From assembly GCA_033439295.1 (NCBI GenBank), contig JAVTLE010000021.1:496009-560008 (forward strand): a DNA stretch of 64,000 nt, written 5' to 3'. Position 1 is the first letter of the stretch. Each line of letters starts with the position of its first letter. The DNA comes from Deuterostichococcus epilithicus. Lineage: Eukaryota > Chlorophyta > Trebouxiophyceae > Prasiolales > Stichococcaceae. Made by a program: the position numbers and the translations under genes. Shown here in pieces: positions 4,606 to 20,060 of the stretch. Under the pieces are notes generated by a model that saw only the letters and a list, made by a program, of their open reading frames with translations, searched no databases and was not told the DNA's origin.

Positions 4606-7600
4606 CTAGGACAGCGCCATGCGGCTGCCGCCGTCGATGCTGGCGCTGCAGCGTGGGGCGGCGGCGGGCCCGCTCCCGCCACTGCTGCGGCAGCTGCCGC
4701 CAGACGCCGCTCGCTCCAGGGTGTCTTTGAGTACCAGCTGCATGCTGACGCGGGCGCCGCCATCGTGGCTGGCGCGCGGCGCCGACGGCGTCCCAAGCGC
4801 CGCCTCGTTCGCCGGTGGCGACGCTGCCGCGTCCGGCAGCTGCAGTGAGCCGTTGCGCGAGGGCACATGCAGCGAGCCGGCGCGGGAGCCGCCGCCGCCG
4901 CCGTCCGAGGGCTCCGACACCGTCGCCTGCTGGGACGATGACCTTCAGATCATCAGGTTCCCTTTCTGGTGGGACCAGATGATCATGCTGGCCCAGCCGC
5001 CAATAGCAGGCGGTGCCTGGGCTGCGGCAGCCGAGCTTGTCCCTGTGCCGAGGGCGGGAGGCCCCGACCCTGTAGGTCCAATTCCCGGACCTCGTCTCGC
5101 CCCAAGTCTCGTACCTCCTTCAGGTACAGTACCCACTGCCGGTCCGGTGAACCCCGCTTCCGGTGGACCCACCAGGAACAGAGGGATGGCAGCGGAAGGT
5201 GGAACAGGGACGCTCTATCAAGACAGCCGGCACGGGAGGGCTTTCCCACCTGCTCCATGAGGCTGCGGGACCCGGGGCGCAGGGTGCCAGAGTCGGTGCG
5301 TGCCGCCTGCGCCTCCAGGAGCTCAGCCAGCGCCACGGGGTCGCTGAAGTAGGGACGGGATGCCACGCCCATGCGCGCCTGCGCACAAGGGCAGGTACGA
5401 AAGCTCAGCCCTTGTGCAGCCGGATCCTCGAGCAGCCCCGCCGACGCGACAACAGGGTCTCGCTGGAGCAGGGCCGCAAGGCGACGCCAATGCACTCGCG
5501 AGGCTTTTCACGTGTTGGGCACTGGGGCCTACGACACATTGCCAAACTGCGGACGATGGTCGAGTCGCTCCAGAGCGGGCGCAGGTCCTGCCGGAAGCGC
5601 GCCTGCTGTATCGGGGTGAGCAGCCTCAGGGTGTCCAGGTAGCAGGCGTTGGTGGCGCGGCCCTCGGCCACCATGTTGGCCCGCAGCGCCGTGCTGACCT
5701 CCACCACGTCGCCGCAGCCGCCCACCGAGCCCAGCAGGTCGCCGTCCTGGGGGCAGCCCAGAGCCCCACTCGCTCGCACACGGCTGCTGGGTCGGCGCCT
5801 GGCGGGGGACACACAGTGCCGCACAATGCAGGCCAGCCAAGGTGGCACCATGAGCGGCAAGATGGGGCATGCTCCGCCGCACCTCGCCGCCGTCAAAGGC
5901 GTGCAGGGCCTCAATGAGGCGCGCCCGCTCCGCGGCGATGCCCTCCATCGTCTTGAGGGTCTTGAGGCGCACAGCTGCGGAGGCACAACAGGCGAGGCCC
6001 ATCAGGCAACGGGAGTCGGCACGGCCTCGTCCGGCGCCAGCAGAGGCAAGTCGACATGGCCGGCCGCCTCTGCCTGGCTCGCTCCCTGCAGCCGTCGGGG
6101 GATTCAGCTGATGAGCAGGGCAGCCGCGCACAGCCCATCTCACGTGATGGCACGCTGCAGCGCTTGCTGCGAATTTCCGACAGCCGCTGGCGTTTCTGCG
6201 CCTGCCGCCACAGGCGGCGCAGCACGCGGCTGCACGGGGCCACCCCCAGCGTCTCGAGCGCTGCTTAGGCGGTGGGGAGCAGCGGCAGCGACACACCGCC
6301 TCACTCACCGATGATCTTGTCCCGCTGCCGGTCGGTCAGCCGCAGCGCTGCCAGCACAGCGTGCTGGTCCACTGTGACCGTGTCGGGCGCACTTCCGCCC
6401 GTCGCCTGGGCGCTGGTAGTGGACTTAGTGTTGCGCAGGCTGTGCGCCCACATTGGGTTGTCCGCCATCTGCGCGGCAGGGCGGAAAGCGGCATCAGCGC
6501 TGCCTGCCCAGGGGGGGTCCAGATCCGCCACACGTGTGGGGAGCTGCCGGCAACAAGACAAGCAGTGCTCGTCGACCAGAGGCGCGCAAGGCAAGCGTGG
6601 CATGGGTTCGACCGCCCCGCCCATCAGCCATCCCATCAGTCATCTGGCTGCCGGCGCGCGCCTTGAGGCCGATGATGCGCTCGGCCAGGGAGGCGGTGGC
6701 CAGGATGCGGACGTGCGCCGTGGAGTGGGGTTCGTCCACATCGGGCGTCGCCAGGCAGCGCGCCCACAGGCCCACCATGTCCGTCCACAGCCCATAGTCC
6801 ACCCGCTGGCTGCGCGGGCGAGGACATGCATATCACAGTGTGCCGCCAGGCCAGTTCTGATGCCACCAAGCACGGGGGCCACAGTGCAGCCGTGCCCTCC
6901 GAAGCCGCAAAGGCTGCTGTCCAGGCAGCCTCCCGCACCCTGCAACACACAGCCTGGCATGCTTGCCAGCCTGTTCAGACATGCTGGTCTGGGCGCAGAG
7001 AACGCGCTGTGCACATGCAGACAATGGCCGCGCTCATGGTAGAGGGGATTGCGGGACGCCCGTCTAGCCCAGGCCCACGTCGGCCTTCAGCACGGCGCCG
7101 CACCTGATGACCTCGGCGTCGGCTGGGCGGTAGCTTCTCTCCCGCACCGCCGCCTTGCCGCCATACACCTCCTCGGCCAGCTGCTCCGTGAGCCGCTGGA
7201 TCGTGCGGCCTACCTCCGACGCCTGCTGCTGCTCCCTCGACTGCGCGGACACAGGCGCCAGTGGCAGGCATCAGTGACCTTGAGCAGGAGTCGTGTCAGG
7301 TGCTGGTCTCGCGGCTACCGCATGAGACGCTGGATCAGGCGCCCGTCTCTGACGCATGCGGCTGCTGCCCCAGACGTATGGATGGTGCCATGGCCCGCCA
7401 GGTTTGCCATGCCACGCTCGTATTGCATCTGATCTTGCGGAACACCTTCAGTCCCTGAGGAAGGAGGCGGACGCACGTGCACGCCGGCAAAATCCGCGCT
7501 GGTGTCTCTCCTATGGTATTCTGCCAGTCAGGCTGGAGCAGGGCATTCTAGCGCCTCCAGCGGGCCGCCGGCGGACCGCTGGCCGCGCCGGGCCTGCCGG

Positions 7601-19400: not shown

Positions 19401-20060
19401 GCTCATGTGCAGCGCTGCACCGCCGCCGCCGCCATCGCCCTCCCCGCCCTGCCGCTGCTGTGCCTGCGCGTGCAGCGGCAGCGGCTGCGACGAAGGCACC
19501 CCTGCAGTGGCGGCCGCCGCGCTCGCCGCCGCCGCCTGCTTCGCAAACGGACTGCTGACCGGATTGTGCTGGGGGCCAGACGCTTCGGAGCCCACGGCCG
19601 CTGCACTGGCATTCACAAGCCGGGACGCCTCAGCCAGCGAGGAATGCCTGCTGTCTTGCTGCAAGCTGCGTTGTCCCGGGTCAGGAGCTGAGCTGGCGCT
19701 GCAGGCACCTCCCTGCTCCAGCATCAAAGGCTGATCGTCTGAAGGCGGCTGTTCGACGGGCTGCTTTGCGAGGGTCGCAGCCTTGGCCGCGGTGGCGTTG
19801 CGGGCCGCCGGCCGCCGGTGCGGTGGTGGCATGACGCGCGTGAGCCATACGTAGGCGAGGGCACCGGCTGCGGCAGCCGCACCGACGGCGGTAGCGCCCA
19901 GCAGCAGCGCCGATCCGGCGGACCCGGTGGATGACGCATTGTGCCTCTGCGGGGGCAGAGGCGGCAGCGGTGCCACTGCCAAATGCTGCTGCCTGACGGC
20001 TGCGGACACGTCGTGCAGACCTGAGGTCATTGGCATGCAGGTGGCGTGCTGGACGGCCAT
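13470..20060 (-). CDS. Kinase B: membrane-anchored TKL-like kinase with bZIP-type C-terminal region
   Basis: Eighteen exons: 20060..19327, 19154..19031, 18818..18762, 18605..18510, 18369..18281, 18120..18049, 17850..17745, 17504..17393, 17196..17180, 16958..16834, 16510..16342, 16073..15946, 15636..15489, 15121..14962, 14706..14615, 14334..14197, 13867..13739, 13535..13470. They give 853 residues in one frame. Anchor about residues 45-75 (LLLGATAVGAAAAAGALAYV), Ser/Ala/Pro linker, kinase about 288-567 with GQGSFGTV, VAVK (Lys about 320), HLDIKSPN (Asp about 427), DVG about 445, APEVLLASTKCTEKVD and RPSAKEVV. Residues 568-853 carry LRNTKST, VRLTQRQRDKILG, LGLLSPLQQ and the end LRPGSRTLLEQ. Motifs and most exon lengths match kinase A, so the two are tandem duplicates. 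The phosphotransfer Asp, Lys and Asn are kept, but the Arg of HRD and the Phe of DFG are replaced. Activity is likely but unproven. Confidence 0.78.
17180..17196 (-). other. 17-nt micro-exon in kinase B
   Basis: Same position, phase and sequence product (end of G-T-F-T-W-S) as 8503..8519 in kinase A. It is followed by a gtgggt donor. Confidence 0.8.

Follow-up and report, generated by a model that had tools for sequence, protein, structure and literature searches.

The SAK1 domain, an uncharacterised region some 150 residues long, lies at the C-terminus of the protein SAK1 (Wakao et al. 2014, PMC4067076). It is described from 37 chlorophyte proteins, 13 of which carry a possible bZIP domain (six significant, seven sub-threshold) and one of which, a Chlorella protein, carries an mTERF domain (PMC4067076). 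The domain is reported as mostly helical, its best structural model being CnrR (44% of residues, 73.6% confidence), and it holds one predicted phosphorylation site, where 18 family members have Thr and three have Ser (PMC4067076). SAK1 itself, with 1141 residues, is described as mainly cytosolic and as lacking annotated domains; it is hyperphosphorylated in singlet oxygen, and the responsible kinase was unknown in 2014 (PMC4067076). Here, we describe a tandem pair of genes, A and B, both on the minus strand of a 64,000-nt window (C18:496009-560008) in the genome of the green alga Deuterostichococcus epilithicus (46.8 Mb, 21 contigs), which appear to join a membrane-anchored kinase to a C-terminal module of the SAK1 type.

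The kinase-to-module junction in genes A and B

Exon models for A and B were built by aligning the two paralogues to each other (Table 1). In both models a hydrophobic segment, a kinase domain and the C-terminal region are predicted to follow one another in one spliced frame with a phase-0 junction, as an initial annotation of this DNA had proposed. The two features to which that annotation pointed are present in both genes: the final exon of the kinase measures 169 nt (7778-7610 in A, 16510-16342 in B) and is followed by a GTGCG donor, and the first C-terminal exon, beginning at 7240 in A and 16073 in B, is in phase 0. Each junction intron falls within the intron size range of its own gene (129-412 nt in A, 140-367 nt in B). 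The genes lie where the annotation had placed them; its length of 933 residues for A gave way to 926, i.e. 7 fewer.

Could each unit instead consist of two neighbouring genes, a kinase that ends within the junction intron and a SAK1-domain gene, duplicated together? The initial annotation had itself raised this alternative, and a retained junction intron would indeed close the frame, at a TAG after 32 codons in A (7513-7511) and after 52 codons in B (16185-16183). A separate start for the C-terminal part, however, would need an ATG in frame, past the preceding stop codon and ahead of the first C-terminal exon; the 10 codons concerned in A and the 32 in B contain none. Since the frame ahead of this exon is closed and lacks an ATG, the exon must be joined to upstream sequence, which makes two separate genes unlikely. 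Moreover, the gaps of 369 and 268 nt are intron-sized, and donor, acceptor and phase are concordant between A and B. We consider a co-duplicated gene pair very unlikely and, from the gene models, the fusion of anchor, kinase and module in a single product highly probable for both A and B; a short isoform that comprises the kinase only and stops at 7511 or 16183 is possible. The algal poly(A) signal TGTAA is absent from both junction introns, but equally from the 601 and 670 nt past the final stops, so that this test is uninformative on the junction.

Comparison of the paralogues gave an identity of 44% for the N-terminus (105/237), 81% for the kinase (208/258) and 56% for the C-terminal region (149/265), with dN/dS values of 0.55 (bootstrap range 0.40-0.72), 0.20 (0.13-0.29) and 0.54 (0.40-0.75), respectively. 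As dN/dS is below 1 in all three parts, the C-terminal region evolves like coding sequence under purifying selection.

The N-termini of A and B are Ser/Ala/Pro-rich, with a single hydrophobic segment followed by arginines, a long linker and the kinase. This segment is probably a membrane anchor, judged by its hydropathy. B has a second hydrophobic stretch (1.81) that begins at residue 613, within the module, and the same region of A shows nothing above 1.6. Both kinases are complete TKL protein kinase domains with catalytic Lys, HxD, DxG and APE; HRD reads HLD and DFG reads DVG, and the VAVK Lys, the HLD Asp, the DVG Asp and APE are all kept, so that catalysis is likely in both, as far as motifs can tell. 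The PF07714 match in B spans residues 297-544, and the nearest solved chain is that of CTR1 (3ppz, 5.1e-35). With CTR1/Raf-like TKL kinases, A and B share the kinase family and the intact catalytic motifs, and they differ by the N-terminal hydrophobic segment and the C-terminal SAK1-type module. In CTR1 the regulatory region lies N-terminal to the kinase.

A third related kinase is encoded just outside the window (C18:564557-566586, plus strand), with 41-73% identity to B over five matched stretches. A genome search with the B kinase, in which only the best candidates are scored, listed at least 62 matches at E <= 1e-6, 12 of them exons of A and B; the other 50 listed are separated by 39.8 kb or more from each of the 36 places in the genome where the module was recorded, and a divergent module near another kinase may escape such a count.

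All 17 introns of B are GT-AG. Among the 18 of A, two have GC donors (6661, 5602), and B has GT at the matching places. The two donors in A, implied by homology, read AG/GCGCGC, and a third such donor follows LSPIQ in the bZIP gene L040 described below; these sites are possibly GC-AG introns with an unusual donor. Another intron of A (9809-9404) contains a run of 49 TGC (CTG/CAG) trinucleotides at 9648-9794 on the minus strand, which begins about 15 nt into the intron; the matching B intron shows none. The G+C content of the window is 0.54-0.69 in 2-kb steps, which together with the short GTGCG..GCAG introns and the gene content suggests green-algal DNA, and an Rfam scan of the window gave no family at gathering score.

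Table 1. Position and basis of the predicted features of genes A and B (window coordinates; E-values are those of the profile searches described in the text)
Feature	Position	Strand	Description and basis
Gene A	4606..12016	-	19 exons, 926 aa; hydrophobic N-terminus, TKL kinase, putative SAK1-type C-terminal module, low-complexity tail; homology-guided splice model
A hydrophobic segment, residues 22-40	11897..11953	-	Kyte-Doolittle mean 1.85 over 19 residues, highest of the protein; hydropathy only
A kinase domain, residues 271-528	7676..10561	-	VAVK Lys, HLDIKSPN, DVG and APE present; read from the sequence, the Pfam scan having covered B
A junction intron, kinase to C-terminal module	7241..7609	-	phase 0, GTGCG..CGCAG, 369 nt
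A module segment 1, residues 586-644 (LW.DMV...)	6665..7135	-	E 0.19 as a second alignment with the non-kinase loci, collinear but weak
A module segment 2, residues 681-722 (first LTxxQ motif, charged helix)	5904..6363	-	non-kinase profile 3.3e-5; stricter profile 2.9e-4
A module segment 3, residues 743-801 (NM.AEGRA, LTPIQQ, DPVALAE)	5307..5707	-	non-kinase profile 3.0e-5; stricter profile 2.6e-5
Gene B	13470..20060	-	18 exons, 853 aa; architecture as in A; complete open spliced model
B hydrophobic segment, residues 51-69	19854..19910	-	Kyte-Doolittle mean 1.87, highest of the protein; hydropathy only
B kinase domain, residues 287-545	16408..18818	-	PF07714 2.8e-49, PF00069 1.8e-47
B junction intron, kinase to C-terminal module	16074..16341	-	phase 0, GTGCG..CGCAG, 268 nt
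B module segment 1, residues 600-658	15492..15977	-	paralogue alignment, joint hhalign
B module segment 2, residues 695-736	14636..15016	-	non-kinase profile 0.62, rank 6 of 2313; stricter profile 0.43; weak by itself, placed by its alignment with A
B module segment 3, residues 755-813	13796..14301	-	non-kinase profile 0.087, rank 2 of 2313; stricter profile 0.0099

Relatives of the module at bZIP and other loci

Does the C-terminal module occur outside the two kinases? With a profile built from A and B, the best E was 0.97 against frames near 12 bZIP loci, and 0.044 (1084 frames) against longer stretches downstream of 10 bZIP loci. The latter match lies in a gene at C14:1737017 (L040) and served as the route to this gene; it is not counted as proof. 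The spliced L040 gene encodes a significant bZIP_1 domain (PF00170, 4.5e-7, 30.3 bits, cut-off 27.6) with N-x7-R, the signature of the bZIP basic region (PMC6164503). A genome search with the L040 module, and then with the loci so found, recognised module segments at 12 non-kinase loci (L040, L052-L055, L067-L073), a count that leaves out weak matches at C3:2275480, C1:236247, C1:943711, C14:667392, C9:1091323 and C9:305275; at L056 no module was recognised.

As L040 had been chosen for its likeness to A and B, it was omitted from the homology tests. Profiles of the other loci (10 for segment 2, without L040 and L070; 11 for segment 3, without L040) found gene A first of 2313 sequences, which included window frames and 1000 shuffles, with E-values of 3.3e-5 and 3.0e-5; the frames just below A are partly raw exon frames of A and B and hence not independent decoys. 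A stricter repeat, which omitted also the loci found directly from L040 and kept second-round loci only (four for segment 2, five for segment 3), gave 2.9e-4 and 2.6e-5 for A, and 0.43 and 0.0099 for B. In an alignment of families by hhalign, nine non-kinase loci (L040 omitted, as were the incomplete L052 and L070) matched A and B with an E of 5.4e-10 for this single comparison and a score of 53.8, the best of 200 column shuffles being 11.05. The stricter set of four loci gave an E of 1.6e-9 and a score of 55.4 (shuffle maximum 18.06, n = 200), and a longer alignment of five loci (E 2.3e-6) extended weakly, through a second alignment (E 0.19), to a collinear segment 1. The same segment profiles find L040 among 4423 frames at 7.5e-6 and 2.4e-8. 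Judged by these profile and alignment scores, the module of A and B is homologous to a family of this genome that counts a bZIP protein among its members.

The likeness to the conserved region that follows the zipper in algal bZIP proteins, which the initial annotation had put forward, was thus borne out by profiles, by hhalign and by a significant bZIP gene within the family. Its wording went further than the data in two respects. The module lies outside the DNA-binding part, so that "transcription-factor-type" was an overstatement; and of the "many" bZIP proteins we found one significant case, one sub-threshold case and the unscanned near-copy of the latter among the 12 loci, most of which have their upstream parts unread. 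The sub-threshold case, L053, has a basic stretch and a zipper (bZIP_Maf 17.1 bits, cut-off 22), and its near-copy L054 has likewise; L055 shows zipper-like heptads without a Pfam match. From the side of the bZIP domain, the genome has 23 bZIP_1 places, and the longer stretches examined for part of them (10 + 4) gave the module in one gene. L053 (C19:2978k) and L054 (C12:3603k) form a pair of near-duplicate zipper-plus-module genes on two contigs, five stretches of L054 being 66-97% identical to L053. In L040, the module stretch DNLxEExKQxMEH is present in two copies within a single frame (sense 7514-7999), which may represent an alternative or duplicated exon.

A and B themselves are not bZIP proteins by the Pfam scan, which covered the whole of B and the C-terminal 257 residues of A and gave no bZIP match, in agreement with the missing basic zipper of the initial annotation; nor does the module match any Pfam family above threshold in these sequences. 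An NCBIfam search gave single-member matches only. The motifs by which the module had been recognised held in large part. NM.AEGRA and the DP segment are present in A and B, and so is the RQRDKI region of LRLT.RQRDKI, the leading L of which is not shared (B reads VRLTQRQRDKI). The ten-letter motif of the charged helix holds for A and reads ADRAKLVDAL in B, and the correct form of L(L/S)P.QQ is L(T/S)P.QQ. The 12-row family alignment has five invariant columns, namely the Q of the first LTxxQ, a Glu, the P and the Q of LTPxQ, and an Asp; the T position of LTPxQ holds Thr or Ser in 9 of the 12 rows, and every row has Pro at the next position. A phase-0 intron appears to lie right after LTPxQ in some non-kinase members (for example L069, L071 and L052; provisional edges, from open frames), and in A and B the corresponding phase-0 intron sits one codon beyond this position.

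Another bZIP-associated region comes into question as the source of the module, namely a divergent DOG1/TGA-type domain, in which case A and B would be kinases with a TGA-like accessory domain. Indeed, the genome has TGA-like bZIP genes with DOG1 (L033, PF14144 4.3e-7; L034, 1.7e-8 to 5.1e-8 to TGA3/TGA7), TGA3 carries LTDQQ and ILTTRQAAR at comparable places, and hhalign puts the LTPxQ of the module on ILTTRQ in two of four runs. However, when this origin was tried with TGA3, TGA7 and an algal TGA-like protein, the hhalign score of 14.46 lay within the shuffle range, being equalled or beaten in 10 of 150 column shuffles, and PF14144 gave no match to the module in the whole of B or the C-terminal 257 residues of A. 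We reject this origin as highly improbable. The TGA-like genes L033 and L034 both have DOG1-type regions, the PF14144 match of L034 (4.5e-5) being under the cut-off. A genome-wide six-frame PF14144 search gave no matches, though the spliced L033 does match, the negative being probably due to introns.

Probable assignment of the module to the SAK1 domain family

Two LTxxQ-type motifs in a helical region give the module a likeness to the LTXXQ proteins (PF07813; Spy). Five of the 12 family members match PF07813 at E <= 10, the best at 1.1e-4 with 23.3 bits, under the cut-off of 24.3, and scores of this size do not establish homology. A sequence search of the PDB with the module placed Spy at the head of the 15 entries listed, at a non-significant E of 0.54. 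LTXXQ proteins are bacterial and periplasmic; CnrR/CnrX, Spy and CpxP are related, and CnrR is linked to the LTXXQ proteins. Both resemblances were found before the SAK1 domain came into consideration.

The published SAK1 domain family is C-terminal, mostly helical, weakly conserved and mainly chlorophyte, occurs in some bZIP proteins, is modelled on CnrR and has several members per genome (PMC4067076). By description, the module fits this family well: the C-terminal position is found in A and B, the occurrence in a bZIP protein of the same genome in L040, and a helical, CnrR-like fold would be in line with the sub-threshold LTXXQ and Spy matches. The available text of that description names bZIP and mTERF as partner domains and no kinase (PMC4067076). 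We speculate that the Thr/Ser of LTPxQ may be the residue of the predicted phosphorylation site in the SAK1 domain.

Several points weigh against this assignment and the architecture built on it. The module was assigned to the SAK1 domain through the published description only, the LTXXQ and Spy matches are sub-threshold, and a peptide N-glycanase has the same E of 0.54 as Spy; the LTXXQ/Spy likeness may reflect a shared helical composition. No gene combining mTERF and the module came to light: of 22 mTERF matches, the one closest to any of the 36 module places is 253 kb away; mTERF fusion, seen in one of 37 proteins, is not a defining trait of the SAK1 domain. Gene B alone is weak against the non-kinase profiles (E 0.62 at rank 6 for segment 2, 0.087 at rank 2 for segment 3), the profile of segment 1 alone finds neither gene (E 730 for A, 130 for B), and segment 2 alone has a dN/dS of 0.89 (0.48-1.77), indistinguishable from 1. 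Finally, the fused architecture is a prediction from the genome sequence, and the anchoring one from hydropathy.

Weighing these points, we identify the module as a SAK1-type domain with good confidence; that the architecture and this identity hold jointly for A and B is a reading we favour with more reserve. The "unusual architecture" of the initial annotation stood up to analysis and gained a possible pathway and, for its module, a probable name, which the annotation had not given.

Possible role in chloroplast signalling

What could a SAK1-type domain do on a kinase? Since a bZIP factor has the same module, as does SAK1 going by its description, we propose self-pairing as the simplest answer: the domain, a helical unit, would serve for docking or dimerisation by binding its counterpart in soluble SAK1-like proteins and in bZIP factors. 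On chloroplast stress (singlet oxygen or its products), the membrane-held kinase would phosphorylate such SAK1-domain regulators, and their phosphorylation would start the retrograde response. This docking-and-phosphorylation mechanism is our preferred reading of the role of A and B, but a tentative one. A yet bolder proposal, which we regard as rather unlikely, is that A and B supply the enzymatic arm so far missing from SAK1-type signalling in green algae: placed at a membrane, possibly an organelle envelope, these kinases would by domain pairing recognise and phosphorylate SAK1 and SAK1-domain bZIP proteins and so link chloroplast singlet-oxygen stress to nuclear gene expression. Counting against such a role, nothing in the two loci ties A and B to singlet oxygen, the membrane anchor of A and B is a prediction from hydropathy, and SAK1 is mainly cytosolic (PMC4067076).

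The module could instead act in cis, as a regulatory or sensory domain through which a ligand or partner switches the kinase, with no recruitment of SAK1-domain substrates. A kinase and a bZIP protein that share one domain follow the pattern of LOV, phototropins being LOV kinases. Aureochromes combine bZIP and LOV (PMC6164503), and LOV2 is mentioned for phototropin (PMC4721966). The likeness to the phototropin/aureochrome system lies in one accessory module used by kinase and bZIP factors in algae; the module is a different one, and Pfam finds no LOV/PAS match in B. The resemblance to LTXXQ proteins and CnrR would also suit a sensor, as CnrX-type proteins have a sensor function. No ligand-binding residues were identified, however, and the five invariant columns contain neither Cys nor His. 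We hold a sensory role to be possible but doubtful.

We found no report of a SAK1-domain kinase in the literature, as judged by titles and abstract openings among the papers listed, with subscription papers and preprints mostly outside the scope, and the term "SAK1 domain" occurred in one paper within that scope; according to the available text of a 2021 review, how the components of the pathway relate to one another is unknown, and no SAK1 kinase is named there. A and B would represent a new combination that involves a probably known domain, rather than a system of a novel kind.

In summary, the tandem genes A and B would add a catalytic partner to a domain reported with bZIP and mTERF (PMC4067076). 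The use of a SAK1-type module in both kinase and bZIP proteins would parallel that of LOV in algae. Kinases with an apparent SAK1 domain thus suggest themselves as a concrete and testable candidate class for the kinase of the SAK1 pathway.

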